A DNA stretch of 62,922 bases from Stenomitos rutilans HA7619-LM2 (lineage in GTDB: Bacteria; Cyanobacteriota; Cyanobacteriia; Leptolyngbyales; Leptolyngbyaceae): assembly GCA_019358945.1 (NCBI GenBank), contig JAHHIE010000038.1:1-62922 (forward strand), in the 5' to 3' direction. Positions 1,368 to 9,883 of this stretch are shown here, piece by piece. The position numbers and the translations under genes were made by a program. The notes beneath the pieces are model-generated. The model was not told the origin of the DNA. It saw nothing but the letters and a program-made list of their open reading frames with translations, and did not search any database. How positions within the stretch are numbered: position 1 is the stretch's first letter; every line of letters begins with the position of its first letter.

Positions 1368-2581
1368 CAGGGCAACCGCATACTCGAAATGCGAGGCTTG
1401 AGGGGCAACAAACAGAAAGCAGGAAGCTATGCCTCAGTTGGTTGAATCATCCGCCCCATTGCTAGCACATTTCAAGCACCTGGAAGACCCGCGATCGCAG
1501 CCTTTGCTGGAGCACGGGCTACTTGACATCATTGGACTGACGATTTGTGCGGTGATTTGCGGTGCCGATACCTGGGTCGACATTGAAAACTACGGGTGTG
1601 CGAAGGAGGAGTGGTTGAGGGGCTTTCTGCGGTTGCCCAATGGTATTCCCTCCCACGACACCATCGCTCGGTTATTTGCAGCACTCGACCCAGGAGCCTT
1701 GCAGAATTGTTTTTTGAGCTGGGTGCGGAGCGTGGCGCAATTGAGTCAGGGAGAAGTGATTGCGCTTGACGGCAAAACCCTGCGGCATTCCTACGAGACC
1801 GGGGGTAGCAAAGGAGCGATTCATATGGTCAGTGCTTGGGCAAGCCAAAATCGCTTGGTTCTCGGACAGACGAAGGTGGATGAGAAGTCGAATGAAATTA
1901 CAGCGATTCCACAATTGCTGGCGGTGCTAGACTTGCACGGTTGCATCGTCACCATTGACGCGATGGGTACGCAAAAGGACATTGCCAAGCAAATTATCGC
2001 TGGTGGTGGGGAGTATGTTCTGAGTCTCAAAGGCAATCAGGGCAACCTTCACCAGGATGTCGAGCAACTGTTCCAATGGACGCGCAAGATTGCGTTCAAA
2101 GACGTGACCCACGAGTTTTATCAGACTATTGAGTCAGGTCATGGTCGTGTTGAAATTCGTCGTTACTGGTTGCTCGATGGGGTTGAGCACTTGCTTGATG
2201 CTCCGTTGTGGGTCGGACTTCGACGGGTTGGCTTAGTCGAATCGGAACGCCGTTGAGCCGGACAAGCACCCACAATTGAGCAGCGCTACTATTTGGTGAG
2301 CCTTGATGGCAATGTTCAACGCTTTGCCTACGCCGTTCGCGCTCATTGGGGCATTGAAAACCAAGTCCACTGGGTCTTGGATGTTGCCTTTGATGAAGAT
2401 GCCTCTCGCATTCGCAAAGACCATGCTCCCGAAGACCTTTCCCCGATCCGGCATATAGCGCTCAACCTTTTGCGTCAAGACACTGAGACCCAAAACGGCA
2501 TCGAGGCGAAACGGCTGAAAGCAGGATGGGACAACAACGACCTCGCGCGTCTCCTCACTGCTTGAATATGCGTTTGCCTTA
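1368..2581 (+). mobile_element. ISAs1-family insertion sequence
   Basis: The element is bounded by imperfect 18-bp inverted repeats: CAGGGCAACCGCATACTC at 1368-1385, and at 2564-2581 the complement of TAAGGCAAACGCATATTC (14 of 18 match). It contains one transposase gene. TTAGT occurs at both outer edges (1363-1367 and 2579-2583) and may be a short target duplication, but the exact ends are uncertain by a few bases. The right end joins directly to an LRV repeat reading frame. Confidence 0.75.
1429..2565 (+). pseudogene. ISAs1-family DDE transposase with in-frame stop
   Basis: This transposase would catalyse movement of the surrounding IS. The frame opens at 1429 with an N-terminal region containing HFKHLEDPRSQ and LLDIIGLTICAVICGADTW. 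The catalytic motifs follow (IALDGKTLRHS, then VTIDAMGTQKDIA), and the C-terminal signature HWGIENQVHWVLDVAF ends the core. The frame is broken by a single TGA at 2254-2256. Translation continues in the same frame (AGQAPTIEQRYYLVSL) to the normal C-terminus at 2565, giving about 378 codons, the usual family length. It is therefore a recent nonsense mutant and not a decayed copy. Two products could be annotated from this one gene; they are one broken gene. Confidence 0.9.
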
Positions 2582-2866
2582 GTGCTTGAGCAGTTAGCGT
2601 TGACTGAAATGCTATCTCATGGCAATTCAAGAGACATTATTCTGAAAATTGCTGCCAATCCCAACACAACTGAGACAACGCTGACTCATCTAGCCGAAGC
2701 CTTAACTCGCACAATTCGAGCGGCGGTTGCTGCGAATGCCAAGACTCCACTATCTGTTCTAGAGCAACTGGCGCAGGATGACCGACCAGAAGTGCGTCGA
2801 GCAGTGGCTGAAAATCCTAATATCTCGGTTGCTCTGAAAGCGAAATTACGGGAGTTTTCGCCTTAA
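2582..2866 (+). pseudogene. 3' remnant of an LRV-repeat gene
   Basis: The frame starts at a GTG immediately after the IS right repeat and encodes 94 residues of leucine-rich-repeat-variant units (VLEQLALTEML, KIAANPNTTETTLTHLAEAL, AVAANAKTPLSVLEQLAQD, VRRAVAENPNIS). The first residues already lie inside a repeat, so the natural 5' end is missing. No LRV codons are visible on the left side of the IS. I infer that the IS inserted into an LRV gene and the upstream part was lost. Translation from the GTG is possible but has no clear ribosome site. It is related to the two full LRV genes downstream. Confidence 0.7.
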
Positions 2867-2988
2867 TTTTCCGCCACAGCAACGAACAACTCGACGGTAG
2901 GCGACTTATGACCAGCTCCAGCATTCTCAATTGACAACTGGGTCGATCGGATCGGGCATATTGAGGTAAGACGCGATCGATCCTGACT

Positions 2989-4290
2989 ATGCTAACGCCA
3001 GAACAACAAGCCGCAGACGAAGCAACGCCTGTAGAGAAATTGCGGGAGTTCGTCCAGCAAAGCGTTGAACTCGCACGAATCGTTTCTCGAAATTCCTATG
3101 CTGATCCAGAGCTATTGCGAGAATTAGCCGCCAGTTCAGATCAGGAAGCCCGTTGTGGCGTTGCGGCAAATCCCAATGTACCTGTAGAAGTTCTGTTCAA
3201 ACTAGGTGAGGAGTTTCCAAAGCAGCTATTAGAGAATCCTGTGGTATCTCTTTTGTTATTAGAAAATCCAGATCTCTTTAATAATCTTCCTCGCCCGACG
3301 GTAGACAGCATCTTGAAAGAGGAGTGCATCCCGACCTTCTTTCTAAACTGGGCAATCAATCAGCGTCGGATAGATTTTTCAACGTGGCTTGCTAAACAGC
3401 CTGAAACACCCAAGCGAGTCCTCGTAGAACAAGCAACTCGCTCAATTGCAGAGCAAAGCGAACCCTGGTGTGAGTTTTTGGAAAGTGTCATTCAAGATCC
3501 CAATACGCCTGACGATGTGCTTGAAGTCATCGCGACTAGAGATGACAGACTGCGAAACCCAATGACGGATAGAGTTGATCAGGCGCTTATGCTTAGACCG
3601 AAGCTACCCAAACCTGTGATCGAAATTTTGGCAGTCCGAGGTGCCGTCTCTGCCAAGATTGAAATTGCTAGACGACCAATCTCTGCTGATCTTCTCCGAA
3701 CACTGGCGGAAGATCAATCAGAAGTCTGGCTGCTTTGTGCCGTCGCCCTGAATCCCAACACACCAGAAGATCTGTTAGAGGAATTGATTGTGGGCGATCG
3801 CAGTCCATACTATGTCAAAAACTCCGTCGCTTTAAGTCCCAACCTTTCTGATCGACTGGTGTTCCTGCTGCTTGAGAAGGATAATTTTGATACCCGATCA
3901 CGGCTCGAAATCAACCCCCATCTTCCCATTACAGCATTAGAAAAATTAGCAAAAAGCTCAAACCGGATTCACCAATGGCTTGCGGCTATGCATCCAAATA
4001 CACCCATGCCAATCTTGATGGATTGGCTCAAGCATGATCCATCCAAGCACACGCTCCTAGCTAGAAATCCTGCCATGCCGGAGGAGATCATTCGCCAATT
4101 CTTGAAAAGTCCATCTGCGTCGGTTCGTGCAGGAGTTGCCGAAAATCCCAGTACTCCAGAAACCTTCCTAATTCAGCTATCAACCGACCATGATTCCAAT
4201 GTCCGTCATGCAGCACAAAAAGCTTTAAAGGACACCGACTCCAGGAAAGCCTGGCAGGAAGTTTACTTCAGCCAATCTACCTGGCAGTAA
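2989..4290 (+). CDS. LRV-repeat protein, 433 aa
   Basis: This is a solenoid of leucine-rich-repeat-variant units, alternating short helices with the motif AANPNVPVEVLFKL / ALNPNTPEDLLEEL / AENPSTPETFLIQL at roughly 24-residue spacing. Residues about 75-110 form a special segment (LGEEFPKQLLENPVVSLLLL) that is shared with the paralogue at 5354-6853. There is no signal peptide and no membrane helix. The four-cysteine iron-sulfur cluster known from Azotobacter LRV protein is absent. It lies 54 bases upstream of the MoxR ATPase on the same strand and is probably cotranscribed with it. LRV solenoids usually bind proteins; a scaffold or substrate-recognition role for the ATPase is my inference. Confidence 0.85.
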   Translation: MLTPEQQAADEATPVEKLREFVQQSVELARIVSRNSYADPELLRELAASSDQEARCGVAANPNVPVEVLFKLGEEFPKQLLENPVVSLLLLENPDLFNNLPRPTVDSILKEECIPTFFLNWAINQRRIDFSTWLAKQPETPKRVLVEQATRSIAEQSEPWCEFLESVIQDPNTPDDVLEVIATRDDRLRNPMTDRVDQALMLRPKLPKPVIEILAVRGAVSAKIEIARRPISADLLRTLAEDQSEVWLLCAVALNPNTPEDLLEELIVGDRSPYYVKNSVALSPNLSDRLVFLLLEKDNFDTRSRLEINPHLPITALEKLAKSSNRIHQWLAAMHPNTPMPILMDWLKHDPSKHTLLARNPAMPEEIIRQFLKSPSASVRAGVAENPSTPETFLIQLSTDHDSNVRHAAQKALKDTDSRKAWQEVYFSQSTWQ

Positions 4291-4343
4291 GCTCCGCGAT
4301 TTTTGAATCTTCTTTTCACGATTTGGTCATTGATTGCTTCATT

Positions 4344-5345
4344 ATGACTCCCACTGAACTGAAAGCCTACCTTGATCGTCTCCTCACCCAAAACTTGAAG
4401 ATCAGCACGATGATTTGGGGATCTCCAGGAATCGGCAAATCGAGTATTGTGGGTCAACTGGCGTTGGAAAAGGCGATCGACTTTATCGATGTGCGACTCT
4501 CCCAACTGGCCCCCACGGATTTGCGAGGGCTTCCGGTTGCCATAGACGGGATTTCCAAGTGGTATCCGCCAGAATTTTTGCCCCGTGAGGGGAGGGGTAT
4601 TCTCTTTCTCGATGAACTGAATATGGCTCCTCCAGCTATGCAGGGAGTCGCTCAGCAATTAATTCTCGATCGTCGGGTGGGTTCCTACACAGTTCCAGAG
4701 GGGTGGTTTGTTTGGGCAGCAGGGAATCGCAAAGAAGATCGGGCGGCGGTATTTGAGATGCCTGCACCCCTGGCAAATCGGTTTCTACATCTTCAGGTGG
4801 AGCCAGACTTTGAGAGTTTCAAAGCCTATGCGCTAGAAACAGGCGTACACGAACAAACCATCGCGTTTCTCTCGTTTCGATCGACGCTACTGCATAAGTT
4901 TGACCCCCAGCAGCCTGCCTGGTGTTCGCCGCGATCGTGGGTGATGGCAAGTGCGCTGCACACAGCAGGGTTAGGGATTGCGCCAGCGGTCGGAGTGGCG
5001 GCAGAGGCAGAGTTTGCGGCGTATCTTCAACTTTACCGCACCCTACCGGATCTCACGCCCATTCTGAAGGGGAATGGCGATCGCATGGCTTTTCCCACTG
5101 AACCGTCTGCCCGCTATGCCACAGCGATCGGTCTGACGGTACGGGCAGCAGACGCAAATCAAGCCTACAGCGCCTTTACCTGGCTCAGTCAAACGGCGAC
5201 AGCGGAGTGGGTACAGCTATTTGCCATCGATATGTTTCGAGTCATGCGGAGCAAAGGACAGATGGGAACCCTGGCAAAACTGGTGCAGAAAGATGCTCAA
5301 CTTCAGAAATTTTTGCAGGAGTTTCAGCAATTGGTGGGTTTATGA
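4344..5345 (+). CDS. MoxR-type AAA+ ATPase
   Basis: This is an AAA_5/MoxR-clade ATPase of 333 residues. Walker A is GSPGIGKS (about 26-33) and Walker B is ILFLDE (86-91). A sensor-1 segment VWAAGNRKEDRAAVFEM precedes the arginine-bearing PAPLANRF. The C-terminal helical lid completes the family length. MoxR ATPases act as chaperones that remodel or activate partners, usually working with a VWA-domain protein encoded nearby. Here that partner would be the metallopeptidase/VWA gene at 6955. The ATG at 4344 is chosen because the upstream in-frame codons (MVIDCFI) are unconserved-looking. The gene ends nine bases before the stop of the convergent LRV gene. Confidence 0.88.
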   Translation: MTPTELKAYLDRLLTQNLKISTMIWGSPGIGKSSIVGQLALEKAIDFIDVRLSQLAPTDLRGLPVAIDGISKWYPPEFLPREGRGILFLDELNMAPPAMQGVAQQLILDRRVGSYTVPEGWFVWAAGNRKEDRAAVFEMPAPLANRFLHLQVEPDFESFKAYALETGVHEQTIAFLSFRSTLLHKFDPQQPAWCSPRSWVMASALHTAGLGIAPAVGVAAEAEFAAYLQLYRTLPDLTPILKGNGDRMAFPTEPSARYATAIGLTVRAADANQAYSAFTWLSQTATAEWVQLFAIDMFRVMRSKGQMGTLAKLVQKDAQLQKFLQEFQQLVGL

Positions 5346-5353
5346 ATTTAGAT

Positions 5354-6853
5354 TTAATTGGGCTTAAATTTTATCTTTAGCGTTTTTTTAGCTGCTTTTA
5401 TAACACTCTCATCATAATCTCCAGGTAGTTCTTCGCTGATGGCGGTCGATTGCGATCGATAATTTCCAGCGAGTTCTTCAAGGATGGCTGTCGGTGTATT
5501 AACATTGCTGGCGATCGCTCTGCGAATATGATCAAACACATATCTAAAGCGTTGGTGGAGCGAGTCTGGCGGATTCGTCGCCAGCATTTCTAATATGTGG
5601 GGCGGCGTTTTGGGATGCCCTGCTATCCCTCTGAGAATCCACTCTCCATCCAAATCATCTTCCTGAGTTTCAGTTGCTATCTCGTCAAGAATATCCTCAT
5701 CATCCCAGTCACCTTCCTGCGTCTCAGTCTGAGCTAAAGTCGCTTCTATTAACGTCTCAAGAACAGTTTCGGTCAAATCATGGCGTCTTAGTACTCCCTC
5801 TCGGACTCGACCGCTCGGATCGGTTGCCAACGTTGCGACACTCTCAAGGGACGTATTCGGATGGGTTGCAGCTCTGTAACGCACGTCCTCAGTCTGTGCG
5901 TCAACCAGCCGTGCAAGAAGCTTGGCAGGGGTTTTAGGATTTTTGAGCAGGCTGGTGCAAAGTTCTATCAGCCACTCTGCGATGCGCTCTAGAGTGCTAG
6001 CCGACGCATTAGGATGTTCTGCCACTTTAAGGAGAATATCCTCATCGGCATCCAGGCTCAGTGCTTCTAACACATGGGAGGGTGTATGGGGATGGTCAGC
6101 CACTAATCGACGCACCGCAGGATGGCTATCGGCTGCAAACATTTCCAAGAAATGAACAGGGGTTCCCGGTTTTTCCTCCATAAACTCAGCAAGCGCGATC
6201 GCCATCTCTGAAGCATTTGGATGAGCCTTAACCAGACTGCGAATTTCCCAAGACTCTTCTCCAGCTAATTTCTCTAATACGGTTGCTGGGACACCAGGTT
6301 TTTGCAGAATTGCCCGATGTATTTCATTATTCCGCCAACTGGCAAACCGATAGAGAATATCAGCGGGTGTATTGGGATTTTTGACAACTGCGGATAGAAC
6401 ATCAAAACTTGAATCTTCTGCCAATTCAATCAATAGTGACGTTGGGGTGTTGGGATTCTTGGCAACGTGACATCGCACAGTTGTTTCAGGGTGTTGGGCA
6501 AGCTGCTCCAAAATTGAAATAGGCGTGTTGGGCTTCTGGGCGATCGCACCCAAGACTTCCAGGCTTGGCACCGTAGACAAATTTGCTAACGTCTCACCGG
6601 AAGCCGTTGAGCTACGAGCTAAAGATAGGCGGATAAATAAACTCTCAGGTTTCTCTAACAGCAGAATGTTGAAAATCGGGTTGGCAACGATCGCGTCAGG
6701 AAACTCTTTGCCCAGCTTCAGGAGAACGTCTTGCGGCGTGTTGGGATGGCTGGCAACTGCCCGACGAACGTCTGCATCTTCATCGTCGGCAAGCTGCTTG
6801 AGTAAATCAGGAGCGGTATGATCAGCAAGAGCAAGACGGGTGGCGCGACTCAT
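5354..6853 (-). CDS. LRV-repeat protein, 499 aa
   Basis: This is a second, longer LRV solenoid. Its many units follow the pattern VASHPNTPQDVLLKL, IAQKPNTPISILEQL, VAKNPNTPTSLLIEL, VVKNPNTPADILYRF. Residues about 48-75 (LGKEFPDAIVANPIFNILLL) match the special segment of the 433-aa paralogue. The region around residues 375-415 is an acidic insert (GDWDDEDILDEIATETQEDD). The gene is on the opposite strand, wedged between the MoxR gene and the VWA gene, with its stop nine bases from the MoxR stop and its start 100 bases from the VWA start. The arrangement suggests an inverted duplication of an LRV gene around the ATPase. Function is unknown; a protein-binding role is inferred. Confidence 0.87.
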   Translation of the reverse strand: MSRATRLALADHTAPDLLKQLADDEDADVRRAVASHPNTPQDVLLKLGKEFPDAIVANPIFNILLLEKPESLFIRLSLARSSTASGETLANLSTVPSLEVLGAIAQKPNTPISILEQLAQHPETTVRCHVAKNPNTPTSLLIELAEDSSFDVLSAVVKNPNTPADILYRFASWRNNEIHRAILQKPGVPATVLEKLAGEESWEIRSLVKAHPNASEMAIALAEFMEEKPGTPVHFLEMFAADSHPAVRRLVADHPHTPSHVLEALSLDADEDILLKVAEHPNASASTLERIAEWLIELCTSLLKNPKTPAKLLARLVDAQTEDVRYRAATHPNTSLESVATLATDPSGRVREGVLRRHDLTETVLETLIEATLAQTETQEGDWDDEDILDEIATETQEDDLDGEWILRGIAGHPKTPPHILEMLATNPPDSLHQRFRYVFDHIRRAIASNVNTPTAILEELAGNYRSQSTAISEELPGDYDESVIKAAKKTLKIKFKPN

Positions 6854-6954
6854 AGCAGTATCCCGTAAGGCCGTAAGGCAGTAATGATGCTAGTTTGCCC
6901 TGAAATTAAGGGCATTTTTACAATAGAACCTGACACCTGGCAATTTGAAGATTC

Positions 6955-8474
6955 GTGAAGGACTTTCAAACCCTGATCAGTGCCTCTCTCCTGCGGTTGC
7001 GAATGAAATCTCCTTTCTTCGCCACACTGGCTCTCTTTGCTCAGTTTATCCCTACGCAGCAGACTCCCGCAGCCGCAACGGACGGCAAGGATATATTCTT
7101 TAATCCAGACTATTTACTCTCCCTACCTGCTGCTCAACAGGACGGGCTATTCCTGCACGAAGTCTTGCACGCTGCTCTACTACATCCTTTGCGACGAGGA
7201 GTGCGCGATCCCAAACTCTGGAATATTGCTGCTGATATTGTCGTGAACGGCATGATTATTCAGCAAGGTGTTTTTCAATTACCGCCCAACGGATTATGCG
7301 ATCCCAAACTAGAACATTTCGGTGTAGAAGAAGTATATGAACTGCTGCTGAAACAAGATTCGGAGCAAATGAGTTTACCTAACCCTGATTTGCTCGATCG
7401 TCCGCCAGAGGATACTGATTCTAACCAAACTCAGAAGCAAAATCAGTCTAGTCCGACTCCCTCAAGTGAGCAGGTGCAGCAAAGCAGCAAGAACGCTCAA
7501 GGAAACGATCGGGACCAAACCGGTAATATCTCTCAGTCAAACAATCGGAACCAGAACCAGGACAATCGGTCTCAGAGACACGATCGAGAACAAACTGGCG
7601 ATGATACTTCTCAAGCAGACGGTCAAAATCAGGATAAAGGCCGTGGTTCCCAGACGAACGATCAAGGGCAGGTGAGGGAGAATACCGCTCAGATCGGAGA
7701 TCGGAGTCAAGATACAGAGAATGCAGCTCAATCGCGTGATTTGAGTCAGGATGCAAACCAGCCTCAAGCCAATGCATCCAAGCCAGCATCCGCGAACTCA
7801 TTTGCGTCTGATAGCCTTTCCCAAGCTCAGAAAGCAGCCCTAGAAGCCCACTGGAAAAACGCACTTCAACAGGCAACGGTGATTGCGCGAACGGTGCATC
7901 ATGGCAACCTGCCCGCAGGACTGGAGCGAGAGCTAGGCGTAGTGACCACTCCCCAACTGGACTGGCGATCGTATTTGTGGCGCTATCTGATGCAAACGCC
8001 GACTGATTTTCAGGGGTTCGATGGCGATTTGTGTACCAGGGGTTATATTTGGAATCGCTGATTGGCGAATCGGTGAATGTTTTTGTGGCAGTGGATACAA
8101 GCGGGTCGATCGGGCAGGTAGAACTCCAGGCATTTTTGAGTGAAGTTTATGGCATTTTGGCGGCTTACCCACATCTCCACTGTCTGTTGTACTACGCAGA
8201 TGCCGATGTGTATGAACCCTATGAGTTAGAGTCGCAGCAAAATTTACCCAAACCGCAGGGGGGCGGCGGAACTTCCTTTGTACCCTTCTTTAAAGCGATC
8301 AACCAGGAGTGGGATAGACACAGTCAAGCCGTTAGCATTTACCTGACCGATGGCTATGGAACCTTCCCTTCAAAGCCACCTGAACTACCGACGCTATGGG
8401 TTGTGACGCCTGGCGGGTTAGCGTTAGAGCAGTTTCCATTCGGCGAAGCAGTGCGTCTGCTATCCATCGATTAA
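6955..8474 (+). pseudogene. DUF2201-type metallopeptidase/VWA protein, frameshifted
   Basis: The N-terminal domain has a zinc-protease-like HEVLH (about residues 68-72) followed by HPLRRGVRDPKLWNIAADIVVN. A polar Q/N/D/S-rich linker (about 130-270) leads to HWKNALQQA, and the C-terminal VWA-like domain has the metal-ion site DTSGS and YLTDGYG. The two halves are in different frames: the first stops at 8061, while the second continues from about 8022 to 8474. Restoring one C so that GATGGCGA reads GATCGGCGA gives an unbroken frame through the expected junction. No slippery heptamer is visible, so this is a one-base deletion or a sequencing error. The GTG at 6955 is the likely start. The protein is the probable partner of the MoxR ATPase. 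Confidence 0.8.
7504..7734 (+). repeat. three imperfect 75-78 bp coding repeats
   Basis: The linker of the metallopeptidase/VWA protein is built from three copies of a roughly 26-residue unit starting NDRDQTG (7504), HDREQTG (7579) and NDQGQVR (7657). All are rich in Gln, Asn, Asp, Ser and Arg. This suggests linker growth by tandem duplication. Confidence 0.65.
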
Positions 8475-8980
8475 CTTAGAGTTGAAGAGATAAGACGCAA
8501 GAAATGTCAAAGTTAGTTGCGTTTGACACGACCAACTGTCGATCGCCATACCACTGCCTCAATTTCTGCTCAGTCTCATCCAGGATAGCGATCGACCCAA
8601 GGCGATTGCCACAATTCCCTCAATGGCTTGCAAGCGGTCGACAACATGACAAATGAGCTGGGGCAACTGCTGATTCATAGTACTTCGTCCCATCACTTGT
8701 TCTAAATAATAATTGGGTGAACTGAAGCAGCGAAATTAACCACTTCAGTTCACCCGCGACAGATTGCCAATCTGGAACTGATTGTACCTGCTTCAGCCCA
8801 GGCAGTGGCATTGATTAAATGATCGTTCAAGAAAGCTTTAAGCAGAGGTTATGTCGGCTGCACTTAGTTTCACCACGATCTAGAAACCTCAGCGTTTAGA
8901 TACACTAATACCAGCTTGCAATCATCTAGGCATCGCTAAAGCTACCTAGAGGAAATTGCCCACTAACGGAGAGAACAACT
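8475..8980. other. gene-free stretch with a nucleotidyltransferase-like scrap
   Basis: On the minus strand from 8678 downward the codons read MNQQLPQLICHVVDRLQAIE and then GIVAIALG. This is the usual opening of cyanobacterial MNT-type nucleotidyltransferases (before the GGSRARG motif). The frame then breaks, so this looks like a short remnant. The rest of the stretch, including the leader of the gene at 8981, shows nothing I can name. Confidence 0.35.
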
Positions 8981-9835
8981 ATGGCAATTGATTTATCTCC
9001 AATGATACAAAGTGCGAAGACCGCCGTTTATAGCTTTATAGCTAACGCAACAAACTCAGCCAATGCTGAAGCAAAAAGCGCACTTAGCAATGCGAGAACT
9101 TTAGCCGAAGAGCCGAAGCACTCGATCGAGACGTTGACCAGTCATCTAAGCCAATCGATCAGTAATCTAAATGCATTTATAGGAAACCTAAAAACGTCTG
9201 TCTTGGAGACAACTAGTGGTGCCATTAGCAACAACATAGGCACCATCCCAGAGTCTACCAATCAGGCTACAAACACCATCGTAGAAAACACTGGACGGGC
9301 ATCAGGAGCTTTCGATGCTGCTACCAGCATTGCTGTACAGGTGCTAAACGATGCGGCAACTTCTCTGACTCAAACAGCAGGAAAGACAAAAAATTCACTG
9401 AATGAGACATGGCAAAAAACAGGGCAAGTCAGTGAAATGCTTTCTAGCAGCATTCAAAATCTGGTTGTGACTTCAAATCAGTTATGGTTAGAAGAACATC
9501 CAATGGTATCTTGGCTAGTCGCTCATCCCTTTTGGGCGATCGCGCTAGTTCTACTGACTCTTTTTCTAACCTGGAGCTTGTTGGGAGCGATCGCCCAATT
9601 TACGCAACAGGCTTTTTTGTTGATTTTACAAGCACCACTCAGATTAATTCAATCACTGTTTAGAGGTGTATTTCAGTTACTTAAGCGCACTGATAATCTT
9701 CCACTCACTCAGTTCAATGAGGAACAAATGCCTCAAAAGCGGCTTGTTGAAATTCTCAATCGCTTAGAGAGCTTGCGACAGGAACAAGAGGCATTAATGA
9801 AGGAAATGCAGACCATTCTTCTCTCCAAGCACTGA
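8981..9835 (+). CDS. membrane-anchored coiled protein, 284 aa
   Basis: No family is recognised. Residues 1-165 are an Ala/Ser/Thr/Asn-rich helical region with repeated short polar helices, reminiscent of apolipoprotein- or LEA-like amphipathic helices. Residues about 185-210 (FWAIALVLLTLFLTWSLLGAIA) form a clear membrane segment. A second amphipathic stretch follows (about 215-240), and the C-terminus (RLVEILNRLESLRQEQEALMKEMQ) is a coiled coil. The start is supported by GGAGAG eight bases before the ATG. The shape suggests a protein that lies along a membrane and oligomerises. The gene stands alone and converges on the large membrane-protein gene. Confidence 0.72.
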   Translation: MAIDLSPMIQSAKTAVYSFIANATNSANAEAKSALSNARTLAEEPKHSIETLTSHLSQSISNLNAFIGNLKTSVLETTSGAISNNIGTIPESTNQATNTIVENTGRASGAFDAATSIAVQVLNDAATSLTQTAGKTKNSLNETWQKTGQVSEMLSSSIQNLVVTSNQLWLEEHPMVSWLVAHPFWAIALVLLTLFLTWSLLGAIAQFTQQAFLLILQAPLRLIQSLFRGVFQLLKRTDNLPLTQFNEEQMPQKRLVEILNRLESLRQEQEALMKEMQTILLSKH

Positions 9836-9883
9836 AAAGTGCCGCAGTAAATTTGAGCCCCTTTGACGCATCGATGCTGTCTG

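Follow-up and report, generated by a model that had tools for sequence, protein, structure and literature searches.

A MoxR-type ATPase and metallopeptidase-VWA gene pair accompanied by module-bearing LRV solenoid proteins in Stenomitos rutilans and other bacteria

Positions 2,582 to 8,474 of a 62,922-nucleotide stretch of DNA from the cyanobacterium Stenomitos rutilans HA7619-LM2 (assembly GCA_019358945.1, contig JAHHIE010000038.1; the whole stretch that was analysed is called the window) hold genes for LRV solenoid proteins, a MoxR-type AAA+ ATPase and a protein of the DUF2201 family, in which a putative zincin-like metallopeptidase domain precedes a VWA domain (Table 1). The gene set proposed in an initial annotation is confirmed, consisting of two intact LRV solenoid genes, here LRV-A and LRV-B, an LRV tail, the ATPase gene and the metallopeptidase-VWA (DUF2201) gene. 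The ATPase and the metallopeptidase-VWA protein constitute a widespread gene pair, which in several phyla is accompanied by LRV proteins carrying a conserved module. The inverted orientation of the two LRV genes around the ATPase gene, which had been noticed initially, could be verified, with about 100 bp separating the divergent LRV-B and DUF2201 genes; among 60 tabulated loci this layout is common to the closest relative only, Phormidium sp. LEGE 05292 (locus L028), with the identical order LRV(+), ATPase(+), LRV(-) and DUF2201(+). The LRV tail, in which no match to the core of the N-terminal module was found, sits just behind a split ISAs1-family transposase. Convincing terminal inverted repeats were not seen at the ends of this insertion sequence and a second full transposase copy was not found in the own genome, the sole other match being a 240-base stretch. 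The LRV profiles match three times in this genome of 7.28 Mb, all inside positions 2708-6775. With a frameshift in its VWA gene and one of its LRV genes reduced to a fragment, the putative machine of the window is probably impaired.

Table 1. Features of the LRV, ATPase and DUF2201 locus in the window
Feature	Position	Strand	Evidence and remarks
ISAs1-family transposase, two open reading frames split by a stop	1429..2565	+	ISAs1 1.1e-93 and 4.3e-23
LRV tail (fragment of 94 aa lacking its 5' part)	2582..2866	+	Pfam LRV_2 2.3e-10
LRV-A, 433 aa, intact open frame	2989..4290	+	Pfam LRV_2 1.5e-17, LRV 1e-16
LRV-A conserved docking-like module (LGEEFPKQLLENPVVSLLLLENP)	3142..3357	+	module model A5, E 2.8e-30
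MoxR-type AAA+ ATPase	4344..5345	+	likely ATG 4344; alternative TTG start 4323; conserved motif columns
LRV-B, 499 aa, between ATPase and DUF2201 gene	5354..6853	-	Pfam LRV 2.1e-38; model pLDDT 90.8
LRV-B conserved module (LGKEFPDAIVANPIFNILLLE)	6560..6775	-	module model A5, E 7.4e-25
DUF2201_N 'putative metallopeptidase', zincin-like domain, HEVLHAALLH 7156-7185	6955..8061	+	Pfam 2.1e-38
DUF2201 'VWA-like' (MIDAS) half, same gene; DTSGS 8094-8108, TDGYG	8031..8474	+	Pfam 4.2e-18

Sixty ATPase loci, found in named genome records by using a three-ATPase alignment as the query, span cyanobacteria, Chloroflexota, Armatimonadota, Verrucomicrobiota, Deinococcota, Pseudomonadota, Myxococcota and Bacteroidota, many of the non-cyanobacterial loci stemming from metagenome-assembled genomes (MAGs). 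With profiles built here, both ATPase and DUF2201 are found at 50 of the loci, at 46 of which they are direct neighbours on one strand; an LRV gene intervenes between them in the window and in L028. An LRV open reading frame (ORF), with an E-value of 1e-4 or better as the limit, is present at 33 of the 60 loci, a count that includes both of two Mastigocoleus loci with identical ATPases (L041 and L042, each also among the 60), treats L056 as lacking LRV with an LRV-like ORF that just missed the limit (E 1.1e-4) and does not comprise L084, where an additional module-bearing protein follows directly after DUF2201. Each of the 33 LRV loci has one to five LRV genes; the nearest LRV frame is at most 415 bp from the pair in 29 of them and is located upstream in the same orientation in 23. 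Linkage of LRV, MoxR and VWA genes is thus conserved in unrelated genomes, recurring in Deinococcota, Pseudomonadota and, in MAGs, other phyla, and therefore the objection that the arrangement might belong to this genome only fails. Any gene family other than the three parts is shared by at most 11 of the 60 loci. At three gammaproteobacterial loci (L077, L082 and L083), an LRV-like open frame, 827-911 aa long, follows a DUF2201 gene whose product lacks the HExxH glutamate, with L077 and L083 exceeding the Pfam LRV cut-off. Five Chamaesiphon loci (L047, L050, L051, L054 and L056) have an LRV gene upstream of the ATPase, clear in four and borderline in L056, with no DUF2201 found nearby; the contigs of L050 and L054 end soon after the ATPase.

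Without linkage as its starting point, the association was tested in 388 cyanobacterial genomes drawn evenly, of which 17 contain the ATPase (a count that keeps the distant ATPase of G053, at 4.9e-62, and the partial one with a stop of G322). The plain LRV_2 profile matches 30 of the genomes, and these comprise 14 of the 17 ATPase genomes versus 16 of the 371 others (p 5.5e-15). The full module is found in 22 genomes, 14 of 17 with the ATPase versus 8 of 371 without (p 1.3e-17; 1.9e-16 without the own genome), figures obtained with a module model, A5, that was derived exclusively from the LRVs of ATPase loci and hence leans towards them, which makes the test with the plain profile the fairer of the two. 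Initially, 28 genomes had a module match; six (G012, G076, G188, G209, G249 and G344) were dropped because their matches were weak (E 4.6e-6 to 7.4e-5), covering in almost every case the first third of the module. Of the 34 module matches in this set, 20, counted by hand, are no more than about 6.5 kb away from the ATPase; they are spread over 11 genomes, in each of which the nearest module is at most 4 kb from the ATPase, with 0.1 such genomes expected by simple random placement; in the fragmented assemblies G054 and G129, the module LRVs are on a different contig from the ATPase. Chance linkage of LRV and pair is rejected by these co-occurrence and co-location statistics. Furthermore, among 31 genomes chosen by locus (L037 stands outside this survey), the module was found in 15, namely in cyanobacteria, Thermaceae, Rhizobium, Hymenobacter, Armatimonadetes, Spartobacteria, two Chloroflexota and, weakly, Myxococcota, with the Thermaceae, Rhizobium, Hymenobacter, Armatimonadetes and Spartobacteria genomes all being MAGs. 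In the genome of L035, module LRVs are present elsewhere, with no LRV gene beside the pair.

All three LRV ORFs of the window exceed both Pfam cut-offs (PF01816/PF25591). The special segment which the initial annotation had recognized in both LRV genes is real, LRV-A and LRV-B aligning at E 3e-27, and represents a module ('LGxEFP..NP..LLLLENP') conserved across genomes, not a chance resemblance. LRV-B is predicted as a single continuous alpha-solenoid, for which Foldseek retrieves HEAT/ARM-type solenoids with low TM-scores. In an alignment of 25 LRV proteins, nearly all module-bearing (A4), the N-terminal module shows a mean pairwise identity of 47% (core 62%) with 1% gaps, the solenoid middle 28% with 59% gaps and the C-terminus 42% with 40% gaps. 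The ATPase is better conserved than the LRVs in 12 of 12 strain pairs, and so is DUF2201 in all nine pairs having it, comparisons in which some LRVs may be paralogues; in two Oscillatoria, the ATPases are 96.4% identical versus 54-70% for the LRVs. That the N-terminus is more conserved than the rest is no general rule between close LRV relatives. It is clearly better conserved in LRV-B of the window and L028, in one of three L039/L048 LRVs and in most L029/L043 LRVs, and conserved about equally or less in the Mastigocoleus, Nostoc and Chamaesiphon pairs. Long-period DNA tandem arrays, mostly of 78 bp or a multiple thereof, are present in 13 of 48 LRV genes. The array in the LRV gene of the Synechocystis plasmid pSYSA has 10.2 copies with 88% match, and the LRV of PCC 6714 has kept both ends with almost no array. 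The L084 protein, with the module present and no Pfam match, suggests that other protein bodies can likewise be fused to the module.

The ATPase of the window scores just under the Pfam cut-off of AAA_5 (2.7e-4, 21.4 bits versus 22) and at 20.1 bits versus 27 for AAA_3; relatives are annotated as MoxR, among them a 65% identical one in PCC 6803 as 'MoxR family ATPase'. In 24 of 24 aligned ATPases, the columns of Walker A, the Walker B glutamate, the sensor-1 asparagine, NRF and SPRxW are invariant, and the Walker B aspartate nearly so; Walker A/B, sensor 1, the arginine in NRF and sensor 2 are motifs by which MoxR AAA+ ATPases are recognized. Midasin (6or5, E 3.5e-5) is the sole sequence match of the ATPase in PDB at E 0.1.

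The HEVLH and VWA motifs that had been read in the subsequent gene are both present, but in two different frames. The zincin-like domain, with HEVLH in agreement with the HExxH zincin motif, is followed by a polar low-complexity linker and then by the frameshift, where one base near 8022 is missing compared with the intact copy of L028 (86% DNA identity over the stretch). Since the unbroken L028 copy is a single open frame, a programmed frameshift is unlikely. Both halves are otherwise open with little protein change between the window and L028 (nonsynonymous divergence dN about 0.10; synonymous divergence dS 0.48 and 0.98), and therefore the break is either a recent deletion or a sequencing error. 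In 37 aligned DUF2201 proteins (A3, taken from the 50 loci having both genes), the three histidines of HxxxHxxxxH, DTSGS and TDG (MIDAS) are invariant, and no more than about 20 residues separate the VWA motif FGEAVRL from the end of the proteins, C-terminal effector domains being absent. An AlphaFold model of the L035 protein (pLDDT 84.7) matches VWA domains with its C-terminal part, with the MIDAS domain of human midasin (8ql1) ranking first in Foldseek; the zincin half is barely covered by fold matches.

Plasmids and isolates extend the picture. On plasmid pSYSA of Synechocystis PCC 6803, termed a 'defence plasmid' in the title of PMC9978351, all three parts are present as full annotated genes; the three proteins have the accessions WP_011153692.1, WP_011153697.1 and WP_011153698.1, with SGL_RS00715 as the locus tag of the LRV gene and SGL_RS00745 as that of the VWA gene. 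There, the ATPase gene is next to the VWA gene, the pair is surrounded by toxin-antitoxin genes, and a 638-aa 'hypothetical protein', encoded 4.2 kb beyond the VWA gene on the opposite strand, consists of an LRV array and bears the full module (best domain 89 bits). In Thermus oshimai, a short LRV-like protein with a weak and partial module score overlaps MoxR, followed by VWA. A search begun from the pSYSA LRV led to an Allomeiothermus silvanus plasmid on which LRV, VWA-like and MoxR genes lie side by side; the ATPase is very divergent (31 bits), DUF2201 scores 107 bits and the LRV is without the full module, and therefore the LRV association recurs outside the searched ATPase subfamily. On the plasmids of Synechocystis B12, the coding regions of ATPase and VWA are broken into several frames with no LRV match, and on the listed plasmids of PCC 6714 the LRV is broken with no ATPase match, a possible parallel decay of LRV and pair that speaks for their linkage. 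Ten further plasmid LRV regions, including those of PCC 6714 and A. silvanus, were inspected by profile, and only A. silvanus shows the pair. In Paracoccus and Azoarcus (L162, L163), the LRV gene is located inside a run of FAD oxidoreductase, Fe-S and electron-transfer-flavoprotein genes. A DUF262 gene is present near the pair or the LRV on three plasmids (L152 13576-15315, L156 4573-6303 and L154 9041-10849), which are pSYSA, pSYLA and a Sphaerotilus plasmid, the latter also with a Sir2 gene.

Several other genes were seen around the pair. Pentapeptide-type proteins, which may be common in cyanobacteria, are encoded at 11 of the 60 loci, usually just past DUF2201 (L031, L032, L035, L037, L040, L043, L052, L053, L060, L063 and L087), with WD40 also present in two of the three scanned. 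In Prochlorococcus, a CHAT-TPR protein is encoded divergently beside the pair (L072 7034-9955), and L079 has a gene of similar size. At L053, where no LRV was found, an LRR and DUF6745 protein on the opposite strand adjoins the ATPase (7125-9854).

Integrating these observations, we consider it as likely as not that the locus represents one instance of an AAA+ machine made of three parts, in which a MoxR/zincin-VWA motor works with LRV adaptors or receptors docked by their module. In such a machine, the ATPase would form a ring, with the VWA domain as its co-chaperone and client grip, and the LRV proteins would dock on VWA domain or ATPase via the conserved N-terminal module, so that the fast-changing solenoid could bind targets as an exchangeable specificity part. 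ATP hydrolysis would subsequently remodel the bound target, which the zinc-site domain may cleave or bind; targets could be own complexes under stress or invader proteins. The initial interpretation is supported in part, with respect to the conserved linkage and the module, and the LRV-less pairs elsewhere speak partly against it; the LRV proteins may, as was proposed initially, recognize the substrate or scaffold the complex.

A number of findings weigh against this proposal. By profile, 27 of the 60 loci have no LRV (7 of them on contigs below 7 kb, and one rescued by the module) and ten have no DUF2201, including Chamaesiphon loci with LRV and ATPase, and the third gene of L082 is without a Pfam match. 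No module was found in 16 of the 31 genomes chosen by locus, comprising eight Chloroflexota, four Prochlorococcus (small records of 1.0-1.3 Mb), three gammaproteobacteria and one cyanobacterium. AAA/VWA pairs lacking LRV, named initially as evidence that would speak against an LRV system, thus do exist in Anaerolineae/Chloroflexota, in Prochlorococcus and as phage copies, with the linkage standing elsewhere; among 50,697 phage records, DUF2201 matches 412 and LRV-A none. The reverse is equally seen, as the module occurs in the eight ATPase-less genomes mentioned and on two Calothrix plasmids with no pair within 7-8 kb. LRV genes are found in unrelated settings, and therefore LRV is a general fold. 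With respect to the components, the HExxH glutamate is kept in 34 of 37 DUF2201 proteins and missing in three gammaproteobacterial ones, a second aligner ranks other VWA domains first for the DUF2201 model with no midasin in its 50 rows, and the broken frames of B12 could be sequencing errors. Positive selection at repeat positions is rejected, with pN/pS > 1 at 0 of 26 unit positions in 7 pairs, and therefore LRV variation seems to reflect the turnover of paralogues and differing numbers of units.

Client maturation is the role of MoxR-VWA pairs in known cases, and the main rival explanation, less probable but possible, regards the LRVs as clients of a MoxR/zincin-VWA chaperone whose task is the folding, assembly or trimming of long solenoids and further proteins of complex build. 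At some loci, the pair is adjoined by different repeat or propeller proteins (pentapeptide, pentapeptide-WD40, LRR). A phage pair sits near a virion structural gene, and for the MoxR plus metallopeptidase-vWA pair described in 2021 in jumbo phages of group 2.2 a role in virion assembly with peptidolytic processing has been proposed (PMC7824862). On the other hand, a conserved short module beside a free-running solenoid resembles docking more than a folding substrate, and module LRVs are also present on other contigs and as tandem paralogues. Plausible, albeit rather unlikely, is an anti-phage or plasmid-conflict system with LRV arrays sensing invader proteins, to which the patchy distribution (17 of 388), the name and toxin-antitoxin context of pSYSA, the DUF262 genes including the plasmid with Sir2, the rapid LRV change and the tandem DNA arrays would fit; PADLOC on the six window ORFs yielded, however, nothing beyond one weak LRV match (7e-4, candidate profile), no additional family exceeds the 11 of 60 loci noted above, and the signal of positive selection is missing. 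Least probable, and in our view improbable, is linkage without function, by which LRV and pair are co-inherited in shared plastic islands. The LRV genes in other settings and the distribution of the LRV label over the ATPase tree (11 changes versus 19.2 when shuffled) are compatible with such an origin, against which stand the unequal module counts in genomes with and without the ATPase, the divergent A. silvanus pair and the possible parallel decay in Synechocystis.

If LRV adaptors or receptors do serve a three-part machine, LRV arrays might go further and constitute a changeable receptor repertoire that feeds captured targets to one fixed MoxR/zincin-VWA motor, an extension that we hold to be doubtful. 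A constant N-terminal docking module and a C-terminal cap would then flank units of 26 residues gained and lost by tandem duplication. For many MoxR-VWA machines the clients are unknown, and the module on a variable solenoid offers a handle on the specificity of one MoxR/zincin-VWA subfamily. The question is directly testable, because all three genes are full on pSYSA of PCC 6803.

In midasin (Rea1/MDN1), the MIDAS domain grips the docking domain of a partner. Midasin resembles the present system as the sole PDB sequence match of the ATPase and the top Foldseek match of the DUF2201 model, and differs from it in that here two separate small proteins, a zincin-like domain and LRV partners are involved and the second aligner does not single it out. 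The Azotobacter vinelandii LRV protein (Peters 1996) reportedly combines LRV repeats with an Fe-S domain, which is absent among the window Pfam matches up to E 0.01. Concerning the MoxR-vWA ternary conflict systems with VMAP, iSTAND, FtsH or beta-propeller components, as far as described in the main text of PMC7159879, in which 'LRV' and 'DUF2201' each occur 0 times, the likeness holds for the patchily distributed core with a third protein, in VMAP systems a fast-evolving one by that account, and does not extend to the LRV as third protein, the N-terminal zincin-like domain and the lack of anything after the VWA domain. No VMAP-named Pfam match was obtained, with no search aimed at VMAP made, and the gene upstream of the ATPase is an LRV. 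The jumbo-phage pair shares the two-gene build of a MoxR ATPase and a vWA protein with N-terminal metallopeptidase, and no LRV partner is named in the excerpted text (PMC7824862). A search of open-licence literature, partly as excerpts, found no paper linking LRV with MoxR or describing the LRV partner or module. To the extent that these sources cover the field, the pair in phages and MoxR-VWA ternary systems are known already, and the LRV partner and its module are apparently new.

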